From the NCBI GenBank assembly GCA_014534425.1, contig JACVRN010000016.1:1-64000 (forward strand): 64,000 nucleotides of DNA. Direction: 5' to 3'. A program made the position numbers and the translations under genes. The notes under the pieces were generated by a model. That model was not told the origin of the DNA. It made no database searches and was given only the letters and a program-made list of their open reading frames with translations. Shown here piece after piece: positions 4,260 to 62,219 of this stretch. Source of the DNA: Pyrinomonadaceae bacterium. GTDB lineage: Bacteria; Acidobacteriota; Blastocatellia; Pyrinomonadales; Pyrinomonadaceae. How positions within the stretch are numbered: the stretch's first letter is position 1; every line of letters starts with the position of its first letter.

Positions 4260-5309
4260 TCACTTGTCACTGTATTTATAGCTGGGGCGGCTCTGGCGGA
4301 TTGTGAGGCCGGGCGGCCCCTCTATGCGAATGGTGTGCTGGCGACCGTCGCGGCGCTTTTCGTCTGACGGATAAAAGGCCAGCACATAGCTTGAGGTTAC
4401 TTCTTCTGCGAGGGCGCGGAAGAGCGGCTGGAAATCCTTGTCGGTCGCGTAGACGCTCAGGCCGCCCGTCTTCTCCGCCAGCCCGCTCACGTCCAGAGGC
4501 GTGGGCAAAGGCTGACGCTCGCTAGATGCAATCATCCTTGAAAAAGATGGAAGCGTGACGGTGTAAACGCTCACGTCCGCAGAATTGGCGCGCTCTATCA
4601 CGGTGCGAGGGCTTACGGTGTCGCCTACGGGGAAGCCGTCTGTAATGACTATGACGGCGCGCTTCAAGAGCCTGCGCTCGCGCGTGCGCGGGGCGCTTCT
4701 GACCAGCAGCCGCACGGCATCGTCAACAGCATCGAAGGTGTGCGTGGAAAGCCCGCTCGGCTCGCCCTCCAAGCGGTCGAAGGCGCGCGACAACTTCTGC
4801 GCGTCAGAGGTGAAGGACTGAAGCGTCTTGACCCTCATGCCGAAGGTCATGATGGCGAAGGTGGACGAAGTTGTTTCGGAGAGACGAGCGGAGAACATCT
4901 GCATGGCTACGCGCAGCCGTCCAATCTCTTCCGCAGTCATGCTGCCCGAAACGTCCAGGGCGAAGACGACCGCTATGGGACGCTTCGCTCCGAACTTGCG
5001 CTCCACGTTGAAGAAGGCTATGGGGCGTTCCGTGTTGTCCTCGTAGAGCTTGAAATCCTTCGCGCTCAAACCGCGAACGGGCCTGCCTTCTGCGTCCGTG
5101 ACGCTCGTGTCCACCATCACAAGGTCTGTGTCTATGCGAAGGATTTCATCCGGCTCGCCCTGCGACTCTTCGGCCTCGCGCGGCTGTTGCTGCTGCGCCT
5201 GAAGCGCAGTCGCCATAGAGATGCTTAGAAGAAGCGCGCAGACCAGAGAGACGAGCAGCGTGCGCCCGCGAGTAAAAGCGTAGGGGATGGGGTCAACGAA
5301 GGATGACAT
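4260..5309 (-). CDS. VWFA-related acidobacterial domain protein, secreted
   Basis: A 349-residue protein with a signal peptide (residues 12-38, LLVSLVCALLLSISMATALQ). It then has a strand-rich region (LRIDTDLVMVDTSVTDAEGRPVRGL, about 58-82), typical of this family, and a von Willebrand A domain. The MIDAS motif DVSGSMT is in AVVFALDVSGSMTAEE, and the later Asp is in VIVITDGFPVGD. The combination is the architecture called the VWFA-related acidobacterial domain and is the best taxonomic clue in the window. It probably binds metal and a ligand outside the cytoplasmic membrane. The start at 5309 is chosen for the signal peptide; a longer frame exists. Confidence 0.9.
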   Translation of the reverse strand: MSSFVDPIPYAFTRGRTLLVSLVCALLLSISMATALQAQQQQPREAEESQGEPDEILRIDTDLVMVDTSVTDAEGRPVRGLSAKDFKLYEDNTERPIAFFNVERKFGAKRPIAVVFALDVSGSMTAEEIGRLRVAMQMFSARLSETTSSTFAIMTFGMRVKTLQSFTSDAQKLSRAFDRLEGEPSGLSTHTFDAVDDAVRLLVRSAPRTRERRLLKRAVIVITDGFPVGDTVSPRTVIERANSADVSVYTVTLPSFSRMIASSERQPLPTPLDVSGLAEKTGGLSVYATDKDFQPLFRALAEEVTSSYVLAFYPSDEKRRDGRQHTIRIEGPPGLTIRQSRPSYKYSDK

Positions 5310-5453
5310 AAAACAACCGCCACGCATTATACAAGGGATTCGCTTCGGGTTTCCAGATGCGCTCTTATTTAAGCAACACGAAGGGGGGCGGGGCGCATCA
5401 ACCTCTAGCGGCGAGCGCCCGCTAATGAGTCCTGCTGATAGGCGGCGAAGGCG

Positions 5454-35132: not shown

Positions 35133-36641
35133 TTATTTAGCCTGGCGAATCGCACGCACGCGCGGCTCGTCATCAGGGTCGTTAAGGAAAGCAGCGAGCA
35201 CCTTCTTCTGTCCAACTATGTATGCTTTCAGAAGGGCCACGTTGGCGAGATTGCCGAGCGCCAGAGGCGTATCAACTTGCCTGGCGAGGATGTCTATAGC
35301 CTTGCGCTCGAAAAGCCGGTCTATATCCCCGCCAGCGAATTTGAGGCGATGTTTCAGATAGTCATAGGCGCACTTTTTGTAGTTAGGCATCTCCACTACT
35401 TCAAGGCGCTCAAAGATTTCTCTGAAGTCCTCTTCTTGAAGGCGGAACTTAAACTGTGGCTGGCCGAATAGAACTATGCCTAAGTAGCGGTCGTAGCCTC
35501 CACTGCCCATCTCCCAAAAGTTCTTGAGGGCAGTAAGCACTCTATCGTCCAGGTGATGGCACTCATCGAAGCAGAGGGCCACGCGCACGCCGCTCGTGGA
35601 CTGCTCTTCAAGGATGTCTCTTATCTTCTCGGCGCGTGCTACAAGGTCATGTGGCATTCGCTGGCCGAAGGCTCTCAAAAAGAAAGCTGAGATAGAGCCG
35701 GTGTGAACGCGATCCATGTTGAAGAATTCAGGAAAGAGCAGGCGCATCTTTCCATCTGACTTCTTCACGGTCTCCATCGTGCGGCGCTTGAGGATGGTCT
35801 TGCCAGAGCCGATGTCTCCGATGACGGCCAGCATCCCTTGGTAGTTGATAGCGTCTTCAATCTGCTCCGCAATCTTGTCGAGTTGGCGCGTGGTGAATAC
35901 CTCTTCGGCTGAGCGGGGGTCTCCGGTAAAGGGGTCACGCTTGAGGCCGAAGAAGTGCAGGACTTCTTCCTTCAAAGTTGTGCGTTGAGCGAACATCTCT
36001 ATCTCCTGATCATCGAATATGAGGCTAAGCTCGGCCTCAATCTCTTCTGTCGTTCTGCCCTTCTGAGTGAGAAAGCGGCGCAGCCCTTCAGCTGCCAGAG
36101 GCTTGATGCGTGCGGCGAAGCGAGAGTCTTTTTGTCCTCCAGCGCTTATGCGTTGGAATGTTGAACGGCTGATGCCCCAGGCGCGATCCCTTCCGCAGAT
36201 GTCGGCTATCGTGTCGTAAGAGAGCCTGTAGTGGCGGCGGAAGGCGTCCAGGCGCATCCCCCAGGTAGTCAGTTCATCAAGCTGCTCGTCCGTGAGCGTG
36301 AAGGGCACGTCGGGTCTTTCAAGTATGTCCTTTAGTTGCTCTTCGATTCTGGCCTTAGACCAATGCTTGTGTTTGCTCAAAAAATGACGCAGGCCGTCCA
36401 GCACCTTCGGCTTCAGCTTATGGAGCATTTCGTCTGAGATAGTGCCGTTGAGAAGATAGGCGAGCGTGGTTTTGCTAACGCCGTTTGCTGAACCTCCGCA
36501 GATATTCGCCAGGTCACGGACGGAAAGGTCTAAGCTGATGCGTAGGTCGTCCAGCCTTGTGTTAGGTGGGCCAGCGTGCTTTTTGTAGCCCCTCTTCTTA
36601 GAGCCTAAGTGTGAAACTATTCTTTGTGGCGGGCGTCGCAT
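35133..36641 (-). CDS. MuB/TnsC-like AAA ATPase with duplicated N-terminal HTH
   Basis: A 502-residue protein, well above the 312 of Mu B. Residues 31-108 and 121-205 are two related HTH units: LSVRDLANICGG... GVSKTTLAYLLNG... HFLSKHKHWSKARIEEQLKDIL and LSYDTIADICGR... GISRSTFQRISAG... RFLTQKGRTTEEIEAEL. The AAA domain (about 225-470) has Walker A GDIGSGKT (275-282) and Walker B VALCFDE. It should choose the target DNA and activate the transposase. The transposase gene stop at 36647 lies six bases upstream, so the genes are coupled. A TTG at 36650 is an alternative start. Confidence 0.88.
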   Translation of the reverse strand: MRRPPQRIVSHLGSKKRGYKKHAGPPNTRLDDLRISLDLSVRDLANICGGSANGVSKTTLAYLLNGTISDEMLHKLKPKVLDGLRHFLSKHKHWSKARIEEQLKDILERPDVPFTLTDEQLDELTTWGMRLDAFRRHYRLSYDTIADICGRDRAWGISRSTFQRISAGGQKDSRFAARIKPLAAEGLRRFLTQKGRTTEEIEAELSLIFDDQEIEMFAQRTTLKEEVLHFFGLKRDPFTGDPRSAEEVFTTRQLDKIAEQIEDAINYQGMLAVIGDIGSGKTILKRRTMETVKKSDGKMRLLFPEFFNMDRVHTGSISAFFLRAFGQRMPHDLVARAEKIRDILEEQSTSGVRVALCFDECHHLDDRVLTALKNFWEMGSGGYDRYLGIVLFGQPQFKFRLQEEDFREIFERLEVVEMPNYKKCAYDYLKHRLKFAGGDIDRLFERKAIDILARQVDTPLALGNLANVALLKAYIVGQKKVLAAFLNDPDDEPRVRAIRQAK

Positions 36642-36646
36642 TCCCC

Positions 36647-38353
36647 TCAAGCCCTCCTTTGTAGGTCAAGAATCGTGGCCGTTGCAGGCCGCTCAGCCAG
36701 GCGCTCGCGCAGCTCCGTGTCGAGGATTTCATCGCGGCCCGCAAAGACCGCTTTGAGCCATTCCTTTTCATGGTCTGCTGCGGGCGTGGAGAAGACCTCC
36801 TCTTCGACAAGCAGAGCAACGGCAGTCCAGTAATCAATGAGATGGCCGCTCATTGAAGGCGGCACTATGCCAGGGCCTAGCGCGGCCAGCAGATCAGGGT
36901 TGGTTTTCTCTCTCTTCTTAGGAAAGAGTGGAGGTCTATTTGCTGCCTCTTCTTCCTGGACAAGCGGAGTTTCAAAGCCTGGCGTGATGAGGTCTGTGCC
37001 CTCTTCCATGTGGGCCTGCTTGCGTTCCTGTGTAGAGGCGCGAAGGTTTTTGAGTGTCTTCTGACGTGTGGTTTCAGGCGTAGCTTTGAACTCGCCTGCA
37101 ACGTCCGCGCGGGCCAGCTTCCGCTCTATCTCGTACTCGTTTCCATCAAGACCGACAATCCAATAGTAGCTCTCATCAGGAGGCCAGATGACTTTGATGG
37201 TTTTGTTAATCCAGTCAACGAAGGGAGACTTGCGCGGCAGTTGATACTCCGCGCCCTGGAAGCTGATGGTGACTTTCGCTGTAAGCTTGCATTCAAACTC
37301 GTCTGCCTTGAACGCTGAATCTAAGAGCTTATCTGGAGGGATACGCAGAGCCTTGTGTCCGGCCTGCCATCTAATCATAGGCTTCTCGCCGGTCGCGCGA
37401 TTCTCTCTCCAGTTGTAATGGTCGCAGAGTTGCACGCAGAACGCATTCAACTCTTCCAGCGTGCGCTGCCTGTAACTGACTCCTATGAGCTTCTCGTACT
37501 CTTCCACAATCCTGTGGCCCACTTCGACCTTACCCGTCGCCTGCGGGTTTCCGGCCTGATGCTGGTCAAGCTTGAAGCCGCCAAGGTTGAAGTATTCAAA
37601 GTAGCGATTCAGGATGCTCTCAGCCCGCGCCATGCGCTTAGAGAGAATGATGCGGTCACGATCCGAGTAAAGGACGCGAGGGATGCCGAGCGTGCGGAAA
37701 GCTTCCAACAGAAAATCAATTACATGGATAGACGTAGGTTTAAGACACGCGACGAAGCGCACATATTTCAGGCGAGAGAAGTCGTCAACAAGTCCGAACT
37801 TCCAGAGCGGTATGCGATTGGGGTTAGAATTAGGATGGTTCTTTGAAACATCTAGGGTTGAGACATGCAGGATGCGCCTCGTCTTGTGATCAATCCAGCG
37901 CTCTTTCACGCCGGAAATATCGAACTGAAAAATGTGTCCCGGATATTCAGCTTCAAAAGGTCTATAGGGTCGCACGTTCGCGCGGTTGGAAGCGCGGCTG
38001 ATGCCCTTCTCGCGCAGGTTGCGACGGAACGTGCCGAGTGATACGGGGATATGATGACCATTATCTTGCGCCGTTCTGAGCGCCCAAAATGGCGAGAGAT
38101 GGCGGGTGATGACAAGCTCTGCGGCCAGGCGCGTGCCCGGATGCTCTAACAGGTCTGCGCGGCGCTTGCCCTTGTCCGCGCGCTCGTCTCTGCGCGGGCG
38201 AACCTCGCGCGAGATTTCATAGACGCGCGAGAGGGATATGCCGAAGCGGGTAGCCAGGGCCTGAGCTTCTGCTTTCGCAGGCGCACCCTTGAGGCCGCGC
38301 ATCGAATCTATAATCTCTTGTCTTGTTAGGTGTCCTACTGTTATCTTTGGCAT
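36647..38353 (-). CDS. MuA/TniA-type DDE transposase
   Basis: A 568-residue protein from the ATG at 38353 (GGAG upstream). The N-terminal HTH (1-55) and a middle DNA-binding region precede the retroviral-type integrase core. The catalytic triad is visible: Asp145 in IFQFDISG, Asp231 in LYSDRDRI and Glu277 in ATGKVEVGHRIVEEYE. The C-terminal beta-barrel and a charged tail that would contact the ATPase follow. It catalyses strand transfer for integration and replicative transposition. An earlier ATG at 38518 would overlap tnpB and is less likely. Confidence 0.92.
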   Translation of the reverse strand: MPKITVGHLTRQEIIDSMRGLKGAPAKAEAQALATRFGISLSRVYEISREVRPRRDERADKGKRRADLLEHPGTRLAAELVITRHLSPFWALRTAQDNGHHIPVSLGTFRRNLREKGISRASNRANVRPYRPFEAEYPGHIFQFDISGVKERWIDHKTRRILHVSTLDVSKNHPNSNPNRIPLWKFGLVDDFSRLKYVRFVACLKPTSIHVIDFLLEAFRTLGIPRVLYSDRDRIILSKRMARAESILNRYFEYFNLGGFKLDQHQAGNPQATGKVEVGHRIVEEYEKLIGVSYRQRTLEELNAFCVQLCDHYNWRENRATGEKPMIRWQAGHKALRIPPDKLLDSAFKADEFECKLTAKVTISFQGAEYQLPRKSPFVDWINKTIKVIWPPDESYYWIVGLDGNEYEIERKLARADVAGEFKATPETTRQKTLKNLRASTQERKQAHMEEGTDLITPGFETPLVQEEEAANRPPLFPKKREKTNPDLLAALGPGIVPPSMSGHLIDYWTAVALLVEEEVFSTPAADHEKEWLKAVFAGRDEILDTELRERLAERPATATILDLQRRA

Positions 38354-38422
38354 TGAGGGTCTCCAACCTCTTCTGCGAAATTTAATTACCCAACCAACCT
38401 GATTCACTTTCACTTTTAACCT

Positions 38423-38477
38423 TGCGCAGCTTTTTAATTTCTGCGCAGATGGTGATTGCCACGCTAAAGAAAGCGGC
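38423..38477 (-). ncRNA. candidate TnpB right-end/omega-RNA hairpins
   Basis: Downstream of tnpB on its strand, GCCGCT-ttcttt-AGCGTGGC (38477-38458) forms an imperfect stem with a two-base bulge. This is the terminal hairpin position of IS605-type right ends (usually GCCCCACGC/GCGTGGGG). A second stem, TGCGCAG/CTGCGCA (38447-38423), follows before the transposase start. TnpB guide RNAs end in such a hairpin just past the gene. Whether a functional guide is made is unknown. Confidence 0.35.
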
Positions 38478-38480
38478 TTC

Positions 38481-39602
38481 TCATGCAACGCATTCCGTAA
38501 TCGGAGACGTTGGCGCATGAAGGCTCAATCCGAGCCGAAGTATTTCCATAGCAGAGGCATGGTCACGCGAGACGGATAGCCCGCATGACTGGCACTCATG
38601 CCAGCGTTGCGCGAGTGTCTTAGGTACATCTGCTCCGCATACGCATCTCTGCGATGTGCCGCGAGGGTCAACTTTTATCAGCACGCGGGCAGCTTCTTCC
38701 GCTTTCTCCGCAAGCTTGTTGATGAACGCTGACCATCCGGCATCATTGACTTGTTTAGCTAAGTGAGATTTAGCTAAACCTTTGACGTTCAAATTCTCTA
38801 TTGCTATGAGTCCGTATTGATTAACGAGTGCGTGTGAGACTTTGTGATGAAAGTCCGCGCGCTGGTTTCTAATGTGAGCGTGAATGCGTTGTAAGAGTTG
38901 AATAGCTTTGCGTCTGCGATTGCTACCCTTTTTACGGCGAGAGACTTTACGCTGCGCTTTTCTGAGCTTCGCTTGTGACTGCTCAAAGTATCTTGGGTTA
39001 GCTATCTCTGTTCCATCTGAGAGAGTAGCGAAAGCAGAGATGCCGACATCTAGGCCGATAGTCTTAGAAGATAGCGGTAATGGATTCTCTTCACATTCAA
39101 CAACAAAGCAGGCATACCACTTGCCCGCATCGCGCCTGACGGTGAGGGTTTTAATCTTCCCTTCTATTGAACGGTGAAGCTTGAGTTTAACCTGACCGAT
39201 GCCCTGCAATCGAAGCTTATTATTATCTAATAGTCTGCATCCCCTTCCGTAGTGAGTAAAGGTGAAACTATCGTAGCGAGACAGAGACTTGAAGCGCGGG
39301 AAGCCTGCGCGCTCTCCACGCTTAACACGACGAAAGAAACCTTTGAAAGCTTTATCTACTCTCTGTAAAACCTCTTGAGCTACATCGTAACCCTGTATAT
39401 CCGTATCGCCTGCTGCGCGAATATCTTTTAATTGATACGTTTGGTCAAAACAGGTGATTGACTTTCTCTCTAATCTCCAAGCATCACGTCTTTCCTGCAA
39501 TGCTGCATTGTAGAGCCGACACGCTTCACTAAGCTGACTCTCTAACAGAGCTACCTGTGAGCGTGTCGGATACAACCTGTATTTGTAAGTCTTTCGAATC
39601 AC
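38481..39602 (-). CDS. tnpB: TnpB (IS605 OrfB) RNA-guided nuclease-family protein
   Basis: A 373-residue protein with the full TnpB layout. The N-terminus (1-170) carries MIRKTYKYRLYPT. A RuvC-like nuclease has Asp185 (TIGLDVGISAF), Glu269 (IAIENLNVKGL) and Asp347 (SRDHASAMEIL), and a zinc finger has Cys320, Cys322, Cys337 and Cys340. All catalytic residues are intact. It starts at a GTG two bases after the stop of 39605-39943, so it is coupled within the early operon. No TnpA and no clear left end are present. Family members cut DNA guided by an RNA made from the element end. Confidence 0.9.
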   Translation of the reverse strand: MIRKTYKYRLYPTRSQVALLESQLSEACRLYNAALQERRDAWRLERKSITCFDQTYQLKDIRAAGDTDIQGYDVAQEVLQRVDKAFKGFFRRVKRGERAGFPRFKSLSRYDSFTFTHYGRGCRLLDNNKLRLQGIGQVKLKLHRSIEGKIKTLTVRRDAGKWYACFVVECEENPLPLSSKTIGLDVGISAFATLSDGTEIANPRYFEQSQAKLRKAQRKVSRRKKGSNRRRKAIQLLQRIHAHIRNQRADFHHKVSHALVNQYGLIAIENLNVKGLAKSHLAKQVNDAGWSAFINKLAEKAEEAARVLIKVDPRGTSQRCVCGADVPKTLAQRWHECQSCGLSVSRDHASAMEILRLGLSLHAPTSPITECVA

Positions 39603-46928: not shown

Positions 46929-47246
46929 CTAAGGTTCGTTTTTCGATTCTGAAATTTCAGAATCCTGATCGTGGATTGTTGCCAGGCAGAGGTCGTTGAA
47001 CCGCTCGGAAAAGCGGAGAATCTTCGGCCCCGCCTGCCAGCCCTTTGCCGTCTCAGTCGCAAAGCCTCTGAGCTTCAGAGTGAGCAGAGCGCGCCTGCAA
47101 AAGTCGTAAGGCAAGTCCGCGCGCTCGGCTACACGCCTGATTGATACAGGCTCGAAATTCGTTCCTTCTAAAGCCTCCAAGACTTTCAAACCGCGCAGGA
47201 GCGACTCATTGGCATAGTCATCGTCAGAGCGTTGAGTGCGTTTCAC
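46929..47246 (-). CDS. IclR-type winged-helix protein
   Basis: 105 residues from the GTG at 47246, which overlaps the upstream stop (GTGA). LLRGLKVLEALEGTNFEPVSIRRVAERADLPYDFCRRALLTLKLRGFATETAKGWQAGPKI (residues 15-75) is an IclR-like winged helix. Small proteins of this type occur among Mu-like early genes and probably regulate transcription. A longer frame begins at 47390 but runs inside the upstream gene. Confidence 0.72.
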   Translation of the reverse strand: MKRTQRSDDDYANESLLRGLKVLEALEGTNFEPVSIRRVAERADLPYDFCRRALLTLKLRGFATETAKGWQAGPKILRFSERFNDLCLATIHDQDSEISESKNEP

Positions 47247-47821
47247 TTCATCGCCTCCTTCAATTCGTCGTTGATGTGGTTTAGAAAATCGAAATCTGCT
47301 TGACCGTAGAGGCGCGGATACCACTGGCGCTGGAGTCTGTACAGTGTGACGAGTTGCGTGATGGCCTGCGCGCGATACGGGCGAGACCAATCACGAAACT
47401 GCTCCGCGCTATTTATCCAATAAGCGCCGTAGGGCGGGTTTCGAAGAGAGCCGATAGGCAGAACCCATTCGTCACGAAGGAGCGCGATAGTCCCTTTTGC
47501 CAGGCGTGCCTCCGTCTTCCAATAGTGGATGATGAATTTAAGTTGAAGAGGAGCTGCGACATTAAAGTGTGTGAGTACGCGCGCCAGTGAGAGCGCCTGC
47601 TTATCTACTAACTGCTTCTTCTCTAAGCGCATCTGCACGCACTGCTGAAGCTGAATGGCAGCGCTGCTCCACTGTCTTTTCTGCGCGGAGCAGTCCACAC
47701 ACCTATCAGGCCCATGAAGCATGATGGCAACATTAGTATCCATGCAGTTCTGACACTTAATGCCTTTCATCAGCAGGTAGATGGGATCGTCTTCCATCGG
47801 TTTTTTTTTCTCAGCCATCAT
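47243..47821 (-). CDS. early-operon protein with N-terminal zinc ribbon
   Basis: A 192-residue protein. CQNCMDTNVAIMLHGPDRCVDC (near residues 20-45) is a C-x2-C...C-x2-C zinc ribbon. The following region (HYWKTEARLAKGTIALLRDEWVLP and DWSRPYRAQAITQLVTLYRLQRQWYPRLYG) is helical and rich in aromatic residues. The start at 47821 overlaps the GemA stop (ATGATG), and its end overlaps the next start. I recognise no named family; a DNA- or RNA-binding role is plausible. Confidence 0.6.
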   Translation of the reverse strand: MMAEKKKPMEDDPIYLLMKGIKCQNCMDTNVAIMLHGPDRCVDCSAQKRQWSSAAIQLQQCVQMRLEKKQLVDKQALSLARVLTHFNVAAPLQLKFIIHYWKTEARLAKGTIALLRDEWVLPIGSLRNPPYGAYWINSAEQFRDWSRPYRAQAITQLVTLYRLQRQWYPRLYGQADFDFLNHINDELKEAMK

Positions 47822-48255
47822 GCCGCCCACAATCCCTCTCGTTTGTTCATGGATTTCAAGGCTTCAATCACCTTGTTGGCATCTGAGGTTGTTCGCAGGG
47901 GGAAGTGGCCGCACTGGCGGCGGCAGAACTTTTCGAGCGTCTCTGCGCTCCAGTGACGCTGGCTGGCGAGCGAAGCTATCAGCTCAAGCTGGCCTTGCTG
48001 GACAACCTGATTGATGCCCGCGCGCATGCGCCTGTGCTGGACTGTGCGGCGCGGCGTAGGCGTGAAGCTATCGCCCTTGAGATGCGCGATGATAGCTTCG
48101 GCTTCCCTGAAGGTGAGAGCGGCGATGGAGCGCGTGCGCTTGGTCACAGACTCGACAGTGTCATGGAGCAGTTCCTCGTCAAGACCGTTCTTGCGCGCAA
48201 GGCCGAAGATAGCGCGCACCTGATTTGTAGTTTTGGGCTGGAGGCGTGCGCTCAT
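47818..48255 (-). CDS. GemA/gp16 (Mu host-modulation) family protein
   Basis: A 145-residue protein. QPKTTNQVRAIFGLARKNGLDEELLHDTVESVTKRTRSIAALTFREAEAIIAHLKG (residues 6-62) is the conserved core of DUF1018, the GemA/gp16 family of Mu-like phages. In Mu, GemA affects host gene expression and DNA gyrase/supercoiling. The protein also carries a second repeat of the same helical pattern near its C-terminus. Four-base overlaps at both ends show translational coupling in the leftward operon. Confidence 0.85.
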   Translation of the reverse strand: MSARLQPKTTNQVRAIFGLARKNGLDEELLHDTVESVTKRTRSIAALTFREAEAIIAHLKGDSFTPTPRRTVQHRRMRAGINQVVQQGQLELIASLASQRHWSAETLEKFCRRQCGHFPLRTTSDANKVIEALKSMNKREGLWAA

Positions 48256-51863: not shown

Positions 51864-52210
51864 GGCTGGCCTTACTCCTTGCAGTGTCACCTGCTGACAT
51901 AAAGCAGTTGGCAGAAACCATCGCGCTCTATCTGACTGCTCTCAGCGTCGTGCTCACAGTCATTACTTCGGCTGTGGTTTCCGGCGCAACAGGTCTTCTG
52001 CGGTTTCTGCATTTGACTGTTCCAATTCTTGAAAAGTTTTATCCGCGCGAAGGCGCAGGCGAATGGAGGCCGAAGGTCTGGGGCTTTCTCGACAAAGCTA
52101 CTTGGGCGATCCAAAGGGTATCAGGCGCAGGACATCTTCCGCGTCAGACGACGGTGCATGAAGTGCGGCGCAGGCTGGCCGCAGAATTTAAGGAGACGAA
52201 GCTGACATGA
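51860..52210 (+). CDS. single-span membrane protein, possible holin
   Basis: A 116-residue protein whose first segment (ADIKQLAETIALYLTALSVVLTVITSAVVSGATGLLRFL) spans the membrane once or twice. A basic amphipathic tail follows. The ATG overlaps the HD-GYP stop. Its position, ahead of a lipoprotein and another small membrane protein and just before the terminase block, is where Mu-like phages carry lysis genes. Holin function is inferred only from size and position. Confidence 0.5.
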   Translation: MRLALLLAVSPADIKQLAETIALYLTALSVVLTVITSAVVSGATGLLRFLHLTVPILEKFYPREGAGEWRPKVWGFLDKATWAIQRVSGAGHLPRQTTVHEVRRRLAAEFKETKLT

Positions 52211-52812
52211 AAATAAATTGGAAGTGGTTGACCCTGATAATTGTCCTAGACGCTATGCTTGCTATGCTTGTTGCTTGCGCCCCTGCGAAGGCCATCTACG
52301 GCGCGTCCGTAGGGATTGGCGAGGCCATTGACGTTAAGCGCGACCTCGCGCAGGCCGGGGAGCTTCGGCCTGATGACGAGCGCCGTATCACGCAAGCCCT
52401 GCTTGACAGCAATCGCGCGCTTCTCCAGGTGACTGACACGGCAGACTGCTTTACTCAATTTACATCTGACGTGAAAGAGAACGTGCTGCGAGCGGCGGAC
52501 AATACAATAACGTCGCTAGACAATCTACAAAAACAGGGCGCGCTACGAATCAAAAGCGAAAAGGCGAAGAAGAGATTTGATGAGAAGATTCTCTACGCCA
52601 AGCTTGGCGTCAGAAGCTTTCGCACGGCGCTCGCGCTCATGCCTGCTACAAAACCTTCCCCTAGTGGCGCATCTGCTTTAACTGAAAAACAGCAACGACA
52701 GCTTGACGAATTGCGCGACCTCTGTAGAAAGGCGAGCGCGCAACTACGGCTGAACGACTCAAGGCTGGTAGATGATTTGGCGCGTCTCAACGGCACTAAT
52801 CCTGAGCGGTGA
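52207..52812 (+). CDS. phage lipoprotein
   Basis: A 201-residue protein with signal sequence MKINWKWLTLIIVLDAMLAM and lipobox LVAC (Cys at about 24). The mature part is helical (VKRDLAQAGELRPDDERRITQALLDSNRALL and EKQQRQLDELRDLCRKASAQLR). It would be anchored in the inner or outer membrane. Size and position fit an outer spanin subunit, although it is longer than the usual Rz1 and no Rz partner with a clear coiled coil precedes it. It overlaps the previous gene by four bases. Confidence 0.6.
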   Translation: MKINWKWLTLIIVLDAMLAMLVACAPAKAIYGASVGIGEAIDVKRDLAQAGELRPDDERRITQALLDSNRALLQVTDTADCFTQFTSDVKENVLRAADNTITSLDNLQKQGALRIKSEKAKKRFDEKILYAKLGVRSFRTALALMPATKPSPSGASALTEKQQRQLDELRDLCRKASAQLRLNDSRLVDDLARLNGTNPER

Positions 52813-52847
52813 CACCTAACCTCTAACACAAACTGACGGCGGCAATA

Positions 52848-53123
52848 ATGGCAGTGGAAACTCACATGAATAACGGGACGGGCGCGAACGGCGTGATTAT
52901 GCTCCTTGCTTTTGTGTCGGGCCTCTCGGTCTCAGGCATTCTTCTCTCTCTGCTCGCCACTGTTGCCGTGGGTCTCATGGGCAAAGCGGTAGATGGTTTG
53001 ATTCGTTGGGGCGTAGCCACGTACACGAATCACTGGAGAAAGAAATATCTCCAGATGGAGGCGCGGGCCGAAGACGCTGAGCGTCGCCTGCACGCTCTGC
53101 AAGGAAAGACGGATGGGGTTTAG
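52848..53123 (+). CDS. small membrane protein with coiled-coil tail
   Basis: A 91-residue protein. It has two hydrophobic segments (GVIMLLAFVSGLSVSGILLSLLATVAVGLM) and a heptad-like tail (KKYLQMEARAEDAERRLHALQ). That is the layout of an inner-membrane spanin (Rz-like) or a small holin. It follows the lipoprotein gene by 35 bases. The pair could therefore be a spanin complex in reversed order. Confidence 0.5.
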   Translation: MAVETHMNNGTGANGVIMLLAFVSGLSVSGILLSLLATVAVGLMGKAVDGLIRWGVATYTNHWRKKYLQMEARAEDAERRLHALQGKTDGV

Positions 53124-58352: not shown

Positions 58353-58480
58353 CCATGTCGAAATAAGCCCGCTAGGCCGCTTTTTAGCGTCCGTGGACAG
58401 CGGTGGACAAGTTCAGGTCGCCAAGGGCGAATAACTAAACCGGCCCTTTGTAGGGCCAGCAAACGCGAAATTCAAAATTG

Positions 58481-59980
58481 ATGCTTTGGAGCTTTATTAA
58501 AGACTGGTTGGCGGCGTCGTTAAGACGCGTAGGCGGCATGGAGTTGCCGGACATGGGGCGCAGCTCCGTGGAGGGCACGCTCTCAGACCGCTTGGCCGGT
58601 GCTATGTCTGGCTTCGGCACCGTCTCTCCGTACATCAGTTTTGAGATGCTCGCTCTCCTGAAGCGTTTTTCAGTCTTCAATCCTGATTTCAGCCAGTACG
58701 TTCAGAACATCATCAATCTCGCCAACACCGGACACAAGATTGTCGTTGATGCCCCTTCCAGCCAGAGGGCTGAAGCTGCCGTGACGCGACTCAACGAAGC
58801 GGCGTCAAGGCTCTATGAGAATGCTGCTGGTGTAGACGGCCTCTTTAATGCCTACTTCAATCAGATAGCCGTGTATGGCGCGGTCTCCTCCGAAGATGTT
58901 GTTGACTTCGGAGGCCGTAGAGTCAAGAAGGTTGTCATTGTTCCGGTTGAGCAGATTCGCTTTCAATACCTGGACGATGAATACGTGCCGCATCAGCAGC
59001 CCAACTCGCTGCTCGGCTTGCAACGCTCTCCGCTCGGTCTCATCCGCCTTAATCCAGAGACCTATCATTACTACGCGCTTCAGACCATAGAGAACAGCCC
59101 GTATGCGCGGCCTCCTGGAAGCGCGGCGGTTGATGCCATCGTCGGCCCTCAGACCGACATGCTGGAGAATCTGAAATACATCGCGCGCAAGTTCGGCATT
59201 CTCGGCTTCATCTCTCTGTTGTGCGCTCCTCCTTCAAAGAAGGCCAACGAAACTGAAGATGAATGGTTCGCGCGCAGCCAGCGTTATCTGAAGAAGGTAG
59301 CCAAAGCCTCTGAAGGCAATCTCAATAAGGGCCTGCTCGTCACCTTCAATAATCAGAAACCCACGCACCATAGCGTGACTGCTGACGGGCGCGGCTTCTA
59401 TGACGTGTGGCGCACGAACGAAGAGCAGGTCATGTCAGGGCTTGCTCAGCAGCCTGTCTTCTTCGGTCGCACGGACTCAACTACAGAGACCTTCGCGGAT
59501 GTCGTCTATAACCTGCTGTTGAGCCAGGCCGGAAACATCCAGCGCCTCGGCAAGCGTCGCCACGAAGCGACGTGCCGCCTTGATCTGCGCTTAGGCGGGA
59601 TTGAGGTTGACGGTCTCTCCGTCCAGTTCAACCGCGCGCACGCCCGCGACCCGCTCAAAGAGGCGCAGGCCGATCAGATTCGATTCCAGGTCACTAAAGA
59701 AAAAGCAGAGTGCGGAATGATTTCGCCGGATGAGGCCGCGCAGGAATGCGGCTATGACTCCGCGTATGACCCCGAGCTGATAGCAGCAGCTCCAGAGTTG
59801 GCTCAAAGCTTGAGGCGCATGCATGGGGGGGCTGGGCATGCGTCGCAGTTTAGAGCCACGTTCCGCTTCAACCGCGACGCGCAACGGTATCAGTTCGTTC
59901 CCCAGAGAATTGAATTGATGAGCGCGCCGGTTGAAGCGGATGACAACGTGTTCTCTCTAAAAAAAAAGAGGGCGGCTTAA
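58481..59980 (+). CDS. portal protein
   Basis: A 499-residue protein following the large terminase in Mu order (gp29). It has ISFEMLALLKRFSVFNPDFSQYVQNIINLANTGHKIVV at the start, a long central body (FNAYFNQIAVYGAVSSEDVVDF, YIARKFGILGFISLL) and LAQQPVFFGRTDSTTETFADVVYNLLLSQAGNIQ, typical of phage portals. It forms the dodecameric entry ring. The 3' end contains the slippery A9 tract. The ATG at 58481 has no clear ribosome-binding site. A GGCCC/GGGCC hairpin lies about 30 bases upstream. Confidence 0.82.
   Translation: MLWSFIKDWLAASLRRVGGMELPDMGRSSVEGTLSDRLAGAMSGFGTVSPYISFEMLALLKRFSVFNPDFSQYVQNIINLANTGHKIVVDAPSSQRAEAAVTRLNEAASRLYENAAGVDGLFNAYFNQIAVYGAVSSEDVVDFGGRRVKKVVIVPVEQIRFQYLDDEYVPHQQPNSLLGLQRSPLGLIRLNPETYHYYALQTIENSPYARPPGSAAVDAIVGPQTDMLENLKYIARKFGILGFISLLCAPPSKKANETEDEWFARSQRYLKKVAKASEGNLNKGLLVTFNNQKPTHHSVTADGRGFYDVWRTNEEQVMSGLAQQPVFFGRTDSTTETFADVVYNLLLSQAGNIQRLGKRRHEATCRLDLRLGGIEVDGLSVQFNRAHARDPLKEAQADQIRFQVTKEKAECGMISPDEAAQECGYDSAYDPELIAAAPELAQSLRRMHGGAGHASQFRATFRFNRDAQRYQFVPQRIELMSAPVEADDNVFSLKKKRAA
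59959..59968 (+). other. putative programmed -1 ribosomal frameshift site
   Basis: Nine A residues (59959-59967) then G give the in-frame heptamer A AAA AAG at 59962-59968, the same as the E. coli dnaX slippery site, 10 bases before the portal stop. A -1 shift resumes at 59968 and stays open through the MuF gene to 60921. The reading frame upstream of MuF looks coding but contains no ATG/GTG/TTG start before 60082. Confidence 0.68.
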
Positions 59981-60921
59981 GTGAGGAAGAGATAGATGCG
60001 CTACTCGACCAATTCACAAACAAGTATCTCAAGCGAGTTAAGTCCATCAAGGACGGAGCGCGTGATGCTGCACTTGAGCGTGTGCGCTCTTTCCTTCGCA
60101 ATGCTGACGCTTCTGATTACTCCTCTGCTGATGATTTCAGCGAGGCAGTCTTTGACGAGATCAAAACCGCTTACAGGGGAGCATTCAGTAGCGCCCGCGC
60201 TCGCGCAACCGTCAAACGAACAACGAAGGAAATCTACTCCTACTATCGCCTGCGCGACGCAACCCCCTTCGGAGAGAAGTCACCCGTCAAGCTCAAGTTC
60301 GGAGCGCCTGACACGCGCGCCATTCGCTTCTTCGACAGCGTTGACAGGTTCTATTTCAGCACCTTCCTGGATAACTCAAAGAAAGAGATCGGAGAGTTCA
60401 TCAAGGAAGAGTATCTGGAGAAAGGCGCTGCGCTCTTCGGACGCGGCACTCGTGAGGAGTTGGACGATTTTCGCAAGGCTGTCGGAGGAAAGCTCGACAA
60501 GATTAATGATTTTCAAGTCGAGACCATTATTCAATCTTCAGTCCAGCGCACGCGAAACTACGCGCACATCAACAGCCTTCGCCAGGCGAAGATCGAGCTG
60601 GCAAAGATTGTCGCCATTCTCGACAACCGATGCACGACAAACATCTGCCCCACTCTTAACGGCAAGCTCATCCGCGTGGGCGTGGCCGCAGAGGCGATTG
60701 ACCGTCTCACGGAGCTTGAGCCAGGCGACTACGCCAAAGAGCTTTACAAAAGTGATTTGGGGCGCGCGTTTGCGAGTGACCCGGTTGGCTATGTCGAAGA
60801 CAGAATCAGCGAAGAGGGTGTGCTGAACGATGACCTTATTGCAGAGGGGCGTGGGTTTCCGCCCCTGCACCCTAGATGTCGTTGTCGTTTAGAGGGAGTA
60901 GTAGAAGGAGCAAGCAAGTGA
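59968..60921 (+). CDS. MuF/SPP1-gp7-type head morphogenesis protein
   Basis: The frame encodes about 317 residues beginning after the slippery site (LSEEEIDALLDQFTNKYLKRVKSIKD...). The first ordinary start is a GTG at 60082. The C-terminal GRGFPPLHPRCRCRL motif and the helical body (IIQSSVQRTRNYAHINSLRQAKIELAKIVAILDNRCTTNIC) are those of the phage Mu F/SPP1 gp7 family. In Mu the family member is gp30; it acts at the portal during head assembly and may be injected. The sequence before 60082 looks coding, so a portal-MuF fusion by frameshift is favoured. Confidence 0.82.
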   Translation, partial: EGGLSEEEIDALLDQFTNKYLKRVKSIKDGARDAALERVRSFLRNADASDYSSADDFSEAVFDEIKTAYRGAFSSARARATVKRTTKEIYSYYRLRDATPFGEKSPVKLKFGAPDTRAIRFFDSVDRFYFSTFLDNSKKEIGEFIKEEYLEKGAALFGRGTREELDDFRKAVGGKLDKINDFQVETIIQSSVQRTRNYAHINSLRQAKIELAKIVAILDNRCTTNICPTLNGKLIRVGVAAEAIDRLTELEPGDYAKELYKSDLGRAFASDPVGYVEDRISEEGVLNDDLIAEGRGFPPLHPRCRCRLEGVVEGASK

Positions 60922-62219
60922 AGAACAAGTTCAGATTTTTAAGCTTATCGGCTGCGGGTGGTCGCGCGAAGTTTACGATGATGCTGCCTTTCGATGGCGC
61001 GCAGCTTTCCCTTGAGGCGGCGATGCGCGGCGAGATTATGGCGGAAATCAGACTGGCCGCTTCCATAGTGGGCCATCAGACGGAGAGCCTGGGTGTAGGT
61101 GTCGTTTCTCAGTATGGCGCGCAACCGGCTCCAATCCAGGTGAACTCCGTTGACGATGTTCTACCGAAAGAGAGCGACTACTACTACAAAGATTATCGTG
61201 CCATCAGCGCAACCCTTTCTCCTTGCTATGCCCTCGACTTTTCAAAGCCAGGCGTGCTTGAAGCAGCCACTCCGCTACTAAAAGGCCAGACGGTCTACAA
61301 AGACCATTGCTTCTATTCTGTGGACTATTGGGTTGGCGTCGTCAGCGAATCCATGTGGGACGCGAAGGGTGAAGCAAGCAGTGGAGTCCCTGGCATCAAC
61401 GTCAGACTAAAGCTAGACGTTAAGAAAGACCCGATGCTCGTGCGCGGCGTGGCAATGGAGCCTCCAGCTATCCATTCCACTTCAAGCACTGTGCTGTTTG
61501 AGTTTGAATTTTCCCATCCTGACTTGGCCGAAGAGGGGCGCTTCTGGGGTCTGCTGGGCGAAGAGGTTAGGGGCGAGTTGGTTCGCCTCGTAGTCACGAA
61601 GATCGAAGGATTTTGGGAGCAGTCGCTAGTCTTTCAGGGCGCGCAGGAAGAGAACAAGCAATTGCCTTCGCCAGAGAGCACAGGCGGTCAAGAAGAGGCT
61701 ATCGGCGAAGGCGAAGAAGAGTTAGGCGCTAAGCGCAAACAAAGGATGAGTGCCGGTGGAGGCAGTCACACAACACAGTTACAAAGGAGTGAGACGGTGA
61801 AGATAAGTGCTGAATTAAGAAAATTGCTGGGCCTCCCCGATGCACAGGGCGAGGACGTAGAGGATGCGGTGCTGCTGCCCGCGATTGAAGGGCTGGGCCG
61901 TCGCGCCGCAGCCGGTGATGCGCTGGTCGAAACTGCCCGCGCGGAATGCCTGCGCGTAGCGACGCTGGCTGAAGGCGGCTCAGGAGACGAACTGCCTGCT
62001 CCGATTGCAACAGCAATCAAGAAAGCAGATGCGACGGAACTGTCAGCCCTGACCGAGATGTACGCGAAGCGCGCGGAGGCACGCTTTACCCGAACGTGCC
62101 AAGACTGCGGCTCGACTAATGTTGGCGGTCGCTCTTCTGTGGAAGACAAAGGCGCTATTGAACAGGCTGGCGGCGTGAAGTCACAGAAACGACAGCGCCC
62201 GCGCAACTCAATCTTCTAA
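60918..62219 (+). CDS. phage prohead protease/scaffold-like protein
   Basis: A 433-residue protein starting at a GTG (60918) that overlaps the previous stop (GTGA), with AAGGAG seven bases upstream. LLKGQTVYKDHCFYSVDYWVGVVSESMWD and EPPAIHSTSSTVLFEFEF (His in KDH, Ser in STSST) match the layout of phage capsid-maturation serine proteases. The C-terminal half is acidic and helical (LPSPESTGGQEEAIGEGEEEL... LPAIEGLGRRAAAGDALVETARAE), as in scaffolds. Mu gp32 is the equivalent. Assignment is moderate because the catalytic residues are inferred. Confidence 0.6.
   Translation: MKNKFRFLSLSAAGGRAKFTMMLPFDGAQLSLEAAMRGEIMAEIRLAASIVGHQTESLGVGVVSQYGAQPAPIQVNSVDDVLPKESDYYYKDYRAISATLSPCYALDFSKPGVLEAATPLLKGQTVYKDHCFYSVDYWVGVVSESMWDAKGEASSGVPGINVRLKLDVKKDPMLVRGVAMEPPAIHSTSSTVLFEFEFSHPDLAEEGRFWGLLGEEVRGELVRLVVTKIEGFWEQSLVFQGAQEENKQLPSPESTGGQEEAIGEGEEELGAKRKQRMSAGGGSHTTQLQRSETVKISAELRKLLGLPDAQGEDVEDAVLLPAIEGLGRRAAAGDALVETARAECLRVATLAEGGSGDELPAPIATAIKKADATELSALTEMYAKRAEARFTRTCQDCGSTNVGGRSSVEDKGAIEQAGGVKSQKRQRPRNSIF

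Follow-up and report, generated by a model that had tools for sequence, protein, structure and literature searches.

Comparison of the portal region of a Mu-like prophage with its relatives makes it likely that one stretch of mRNA yields three products: the portal protein, a portal-MuF fusion made by slippage on a run of nine adenines, and a re-initiated product, ORF0, whose gene is overprinted on MuF. The fuller account, which we favor somewhat less firmly, is that slippage doses MuF on the portal ring, that ORF0 is a de novo exported or membrane protein, and that the arrangement was built stepwise from a fused gene through a slip site to an overprinted gene. The region lies within a window of 64,000 nucleotides, i.e. 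the whole stretch of DNA that was analysed.

The portal gene (58478..59980, + strand, taken as the zero frame; PHROG 3753, E 9e-89) encodes 500 aa from TTG 58478, has the C-terminus ...SLKKKRAA* and was aligned with nine relatives. Its 3' end reads CTA AAA AAA AAG AGG GCG GCT TAA (59957-59980) and contains the slippery A9G tract that forms the recoding site (59959..59968, +; A9 at 59959-59967, G at 59968), with the portal stop TAA (59978-59980) ten bases 3' of the tract, just as the first-pass annotation of this DNA had described. The frame of MuF, a minor head protein, is -1 relative to the portal and is open from 59944, bounded upstream by TGA 59941-59943, to a stop at 60919-60921; the portion reached by the shift (59968..60921, +) comprises 317 codons, in agreement with the open -1 frame of ∼317 codons noted earlier. 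The first ATG, GTG or TTG in this frame is GTG 60082, 38 codons downstream of 59968. MuF matched the head morphogenesis families PHROG 241 (E 4e-10) and PHROG 115 (E 1e-6), and its location after the portal fits a head operon; the match to PF04233 (Phage_Mu_F; E 5.5e-4) was weak and under the gathering threshold. It is 46-69% identical to the MuF proteins of relatives from residue 4 onward, i.e. homology begins immediately 3' of the A tract. ORF0 (59996..60826, +; 276 aa) occupies the portal frame (+1 of MuF) and is preceded by the Shine-Dalgarno-like sequence GTGAGGAAGAGATAG (59981..59995, +), which is of the GGAGG/GAGG type and whose bases also encode the MuF residues SEEEID. The head maturation protease follows (60876..62219, +, the longest ORF, from ATG 60876; phrog_8158, E 6e-38), and an alternative protease start, GTG 60918, overlaps the MuF stop.

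Profile matches to a MuA-type transposase (36647-38518; phrog_310), a MuB-type ATPase (35133-36650; phrog_296) and GemA (47818-48255; PF06252) in the window confirmed the earlier assignment to a Mu-like, transposable prophage. The source assembly consists of 323 contigs; this contig ends at 67,564, and the right part of the prophage lies beyond its end. A TnpB/OrfB_IS605-type gene with a Cas12f1-like TNB domain (38481-39602, -) adjoins the MuA-like transposase of the prophage. Two possible lysis genes were seen upstream of the terminase (52207-53123): one ORF resembles a lipoprotein (52207-52812), and the other (52848-53123) matches a holin weakly (phrog_1129, E 0.004). The window also contains a second A9 run (47801-47809, -), located after the GemA-like gene, where it forms KKK codons near the start of an ORF (47243-47830, -).

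Relatives were gathered from IMG/VR, GTDB genomes and genomes of the same family using protein and alignment searches with portal and MuF. The deduplicated set contained 29 split loci (portal and MuF in different frames), 25 of which constitute the main clade, 26 fused loci (portal and MuF in one ORF) and 13 portals for which no MuF was found; phylum- and class-wide genome searches produced no further split loci. MuF was in the -1 frame relative to the portal in all 29 split loci, and the run at the junction was A9 in 21, A10 in seven and A7 in one (L134), i.e. 28 of the 29 carry A9 or A10 at the same place. In the 26 fused relatives portal and MuF form a single continuous ORF, which indicates that a portal-MuF fusion is a genuine protein. 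At the sequence level, the comparative data show that tract, frame and fusion are conserved, and they support the proposal of the first-pass annotation that programmed recoding into -1 links MuF to the portal. An A9 run by itself is unremarkable in 64 kb (two found against 1.15 expected); what lifts it beyond chance is that 28 of the 29 split relatives keep such a run at this junction, with MuF always in -1. Other runs of at least eight A were seen just four times in 68 portal or portal plus MuF stretches, one of them at a portal/MuF junction (L127).

Homopolymers are prone to error and in-frame fusion does occur in relatives, and a sequencing error in the run had been named at the outset as a possible refutation. 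A single in-frame portal-MuF gene that seems broken because of a sequencing or assembly error is nevertheless next to impossible, given that the same A9/A10 run and frame relation recur in 28 independent genomes and metagenomes at up to ∼70% divergence, that the codon before the run is biased toward ending in A, and that ORF0 is open only where the frames truly separate. The 29 -1 frames, the 28 runs and the 26 fused ORFs together exclude both sequencing error and a plain missing start.

Translation of MuF without recoding would need either a non-AUG start (for instance at a conserved Ile codon, ATA, ATT or ATC, after GGAGG, or at Leu CTA or TTA) or a protein N-terminally truncated to begin at GTG 60082. 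A Shine-Dalgarno-like GGAGG does lie just upstream, and three main-clade loci possess a start codon of their own at the MuF N-terminus (ATG in L004, TTG in L020 and L049), each overlapping the portal stop. The spacing of the Shine-Dalgarno-like sequence suits ATG 59996 better, however, and a start at the junction (ATG, GTG or TTG) was absent from 22 of the 25 main-clade split loci; L002 has an additional GTG far upstream, within the portal. Residues 4-41 of MuF, i.e. the 38 codons that had been described as coding in appearance and lacking a start, align in every split relative, whereas no start codon is conserved at 60082, which argues against the suggestion that MuF simply loses these residues. 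Relatives with an intact MuF start and no A-tract had been put forward as evidence that would count against recoding; starts were indeed found in three of 25 main-clade loci, and 28 of the 29 split loci keep A9 or A10. Translation without recoding also leaves unexplained the 28 runs, the 29 -1 frames and the opening of the frame back through the tract, and fused relatives exist; we consider it very improbable.

The shift into MuF is probably the result of slippage by RNA polymerase on the A run, with the insertion of one A. Normal transcripts would encode the portal and stop ten bases past A9. An occasional slip of RNA polymerase would add an A, no stop would then be met, and the ribosome would read past the portal end into MuF because of the inserted base, generating a portal-MuF fusion that tethers sub-stoichiometric MuF covalently to the portal ring. 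Ribosomes ending at the portal stop would re-initiate about 15-33 nt further on, at a Shine-Dalgarno sequence and ATG in the portal frame, to produce ORF0. The same bases would serve both the MuF N-terminus and the ORF0 start, with the slip giving access to MuF.

The fusion could also be made by programmed -1 ribosomal frameshifting of the dnaX/IS type at A AAA AAG or A AAA AAA, with the remainder of the scheme unchanged. A ribosomal mechanism predicts conservation of the heptamer and a transcriptional one conservation of the run, and it is the run that is kept. The heptamer A AAA AAG requires six A and a G, yet at least nine A are retained, and they are retained in two codon phases (mostly NNA AAA AAA AAG, with four loci NNB AAA AAA AAA B) and before either G or C (AAC in L041, L132 and L135), with 9-10 A at all of the phase-shifted and AAC sites. 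The leading A of the run falls outside the heptamer in phase-1 loci, and all 24 of these take it from the last position of a CTA, GTA, ATA, TTA, GAA or CAA codon; the extra 5' A is thus supplied mostly by codons that make up 2-7% of family usage in these portal genes (CTA 2%, GTA 6%, ATA 7%). The product of probabilities under portal codon usage (P ∼1e-24) is not strict, as the loci are related, though they are 45-80% identical in protein with synonymous sites near saturation. Such a pattern corresponds to the signature published for transcriptional slippage (PMC1088944). The earlier claim that a dnaX-type A AAA AAG is the essential element is consequently not upheld. Furthermore, L127 presents the reverse case, having a fused ORF and yet an A9 at the junction (5306-5314; GAT AAA AAA AAA GTA). 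Slipping there by one base, forward or back, leads to a stop within ∼10 codons and would release the portal alone.

Ribosomal slippage could nevertheless contribute, since every split site holds an in-frame A AAA AAG or A AAA AAA, and both kinds of slippage may be at work. L134, in which the portal ends GAA AAA AAG TAA, has just A7, with a canonical A AAA AAG immediately before the portal stop and MuF in -1, and may represent this switch in a ribosomal form. Stimulators of frameshifting (i.e. a hairpin or pseudoknot 5-9 nt downstream, or a Shine-Dalgarno sequence ∼10 nt upstream) were not a consistent feature of the loci. No internal Shine-Dalgarno sequence was found at the window site, and such sequences occur upstream of the tract in only five of the 29 split loci. 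No stimulatory hairpin follows the tract in the window, as had been remarked before, or in its subclade.

A hairpin 0-4 nt 3' of the tract (0-1 nt in most) was observed in L007-L011, L024, L025, L027, L031, L033 and L047, with stems AGGCT..AGCCT in general, GTCAGCC..GGCTGAC in L009 and, through a double change, AGACTC..GAGTCT in L047. It is too near the tract for a classic frameshift stimulator, and on the minus strand it resembles an intrinsic terminator. A universal 3' stimulatory hairpin was thereby ruled out, the structure being found only in the L007-L033 subclade; of the features that had been proposed for comparison among related prophages, the A-tract (28 of 29) and the open -1 frame are conserved and the 3' structure is confined to this group. 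Its preservation in L047 by a paired change counts in favor of the ribosome and is unaccounted for by slippage, whereas its usual position 0-1 nt from the run means that it would already be melted by a ribosome at the slip site. Considering the run length kept over the heptamer, the window site with neither hairpin nor internal Shine-Dalgarno sequence, and L127, we infer that the polymerase rather than the ribosome is the slipping agent, and likewise infer the ratio of products; a ribosomal shift as the source of the fusion seems unlikely, at perhaps one chance in several.

Of the 25 main-clade split loci, 22 keep ORF0 open over 199-296 codons. No unusual open stretch was detected in any of the 17 fused loci tested or in the basal split loci L029, L049 and L077. 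Its ATG, which is in frame with the portal, lies about 15-33 nt past the portal stop in most main-clade loci, and a purine-rich GGAGG/GAGG-type sequence precedes it in most ORF0 loci; in L018 the usual ATG has been lost and a replacement ATG stands 9 nt 3' of the portal stop. When the MuF protein and its codons were held fixed and a locus's own codons shuffled, 56.7 stops were expected in ORF0 codons 50-198 across the 22 loci (minimum of 500 shuffles, 39) and none was observed. Correspondingly, MuF Leu, Val and Ile codons preceding an A end in A or G in 0 of 182 cases, against 47% in the portal. Residues ∼15-45 of ORF0 form a hydrophobic helix in 22 of 22 loci (p<=0.0065 each under a portal codon usage null, combined 7.5e-41), which is missing from the three split loci without ORF0, and MuF third positions are enriched in T over the helix. 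Selection for openness and for a hydrophobic N-terminus is thus evident from the comparative data. Many ORF0 N-termini resemble signal peptides (e.g. L008, MKYFQNLSVNILGCLALILIVLCVSSLTSYA-DSS); in the window the helix covers approximately residues 23-45 and is followed by a hydrophilic, basic tail rich in S, R and T. Across loci the tail averages S 19%, R 13% and T 10%, with a net charge of +10 to +45. Its sequence showed no conservation (identity at four-fold sites was 0.34 in MuF and 0.36 in the portal) and its hydropathy was neutral under the portal-usage null; hydrophilic selection on the tail, apparent with own-codon shuffles, was rejected because it did not appear under the portal-usage null. 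No match to ORF0 was found in PHROG, Pfam or INPHARED. A chance shadow of codon usage was also rejected, as both nulls (own-codon shuffle and portal usage) and the fused and basal split controls speak against it. The most fitting interpretation of ORF0 is that of a genuine overprinted gene, whose product combines a signal or membrane helix with a basic tail free of constraint, and its overprinting probably goes some way to account for the missing MuF start codon.

The open frame might instead encode no protein of consequence and simply retain ribosomes, countering Rho polarity and passing them to the next head genes. Such a filler would account for a tail that is neutral in sequence and hydropathy with stops alone avoided, for the ∼950 nt that most ribosomes would otherwise leave untranslated, and for the absence of the open frame from fused relatives, where it would be unneeded. 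A pure filler, however, has no need of the N-terminal hydrophobic helix selected in 22 of 22 loci; ORF0 ends 74-362 nt 5' of the MuF stop, short of covering it, and the basal split loci do without ORF0 altogether. We therefore regard the filler as improbable and prefer a putative envelope function for ORF0, such as lysis timing or superinfection exclusion. The separate weak holin match at 52848-53123 argues mildly against ORF0 as the sole lysis gene.

The portal tree places the main split clade among fused loci, and the fused L072, whose MuF is 53% identical to that of the window, belongs to its sister pair. A separate second split clade contains L132, L134, L135 and L138 together with the fused L133. 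ORF0 requires three changes in all on the tree, one gain and two that coincide with loss of MuF, which was lost at least twice within the main clade. This topology fits a history in which a fused portal-MuF suffered a frame break at an A9 run, followed by a single gain of ORF0. Five loci nested in the split clade (L003, L022, L023, L026 and L039) have lost the A tract together with MuF and ORF0, and in two of them (L026 and L039) the protease lies almost directly 3' of the portal.

If correct, this account would add portal/MuF to the structural protein pairs whose ratio is set by recoding, and would render the dose of MuF per portal testable, i.e. why MuF is fused to every subunit in some phages and to a fraction in others. 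The loci would represent an evolutionary series that takes in simple fusion, slippage that either joins or separates the two proteins, perhaps a ribosomal variant, and the loss of MuF. ORF0, unannotated in this family of Mu-like phages from soil bacteria, would be a long overprinted gene kept by selection within the head operon of a tailed phage, of the kind that annotation pipelines are expected to drop.

A run of nine A kept among homologs has been considered very likely to reflect purposeful transcriptional slippage (Baranov 2005, PMC1088944). Known bacterial cases (IS elements with 9A, Shigella mxiE/spa13, Thermus dnaX) share with the present locus ∼9 conserved A or T near the end of the first ORF, a +1 insertion that joins two ORFs, and homologs that vary between slippage, ribosomal shift and plain fusion. 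They differ in that here the pair is a phage portal and MuF, and a third ORF additionally overprints the region 3' of the tract. In Thermus dnaX slippage yields the shorter product (PMC1088944), an arrangement that L127 resembles as the mirror image of the window. Lambda gpG/GT, the T3/T7 capsid, the A2 major head protein and SPP1 17.5 likewise extend a fixed minority of a structural protein at its C-terminus; unlike these -1 frameshifts, the present case involves other genes, a conserved run length rather than a heptamer, and no consistent stimulator. The open recoding papers PMC3711429 and PMC10885494 and the available part of PMC5009743 make no mention of a portal-MuF recoding site; the frameshift predictions of PMC10885494 include MuF-like, listed there because of VIP2-MuF fusions.

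Genetic portal-MuF fusions are found in Microbacterium phage clusters EA3/EA5/EA8 and EB (PMC7302621), and in these phages, as in the 26 fused relatives, one polypeptide carries both domains in identical order. Genetic fusion places MuF on every portal subunit, whereas at the window locus only a recoded fraction would carry it. In SPP1, gp7 (MuF) enters the procapsid in few copies, brought there by the portal, gp6 (PMC6316719). There gp7 is encoded by a separate gene and contacts the portal non-covalently, unlike the covalent fusion proposed here. Among overprinted genes, phiX174 E lies on D and Rz1 within Rz. ORF0 is longer than either (199-296 aa), is located in a tailed-phage head operon and had no detectable homology to known families. 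In phiX174 D/E, the new +1 frame owes its hydrophobic membrane segment to T-rich third positions of the older frame (PMC8227390), and ORF0 bears the same signature, with third-position T of the old frame making the membrane helix of the new one.
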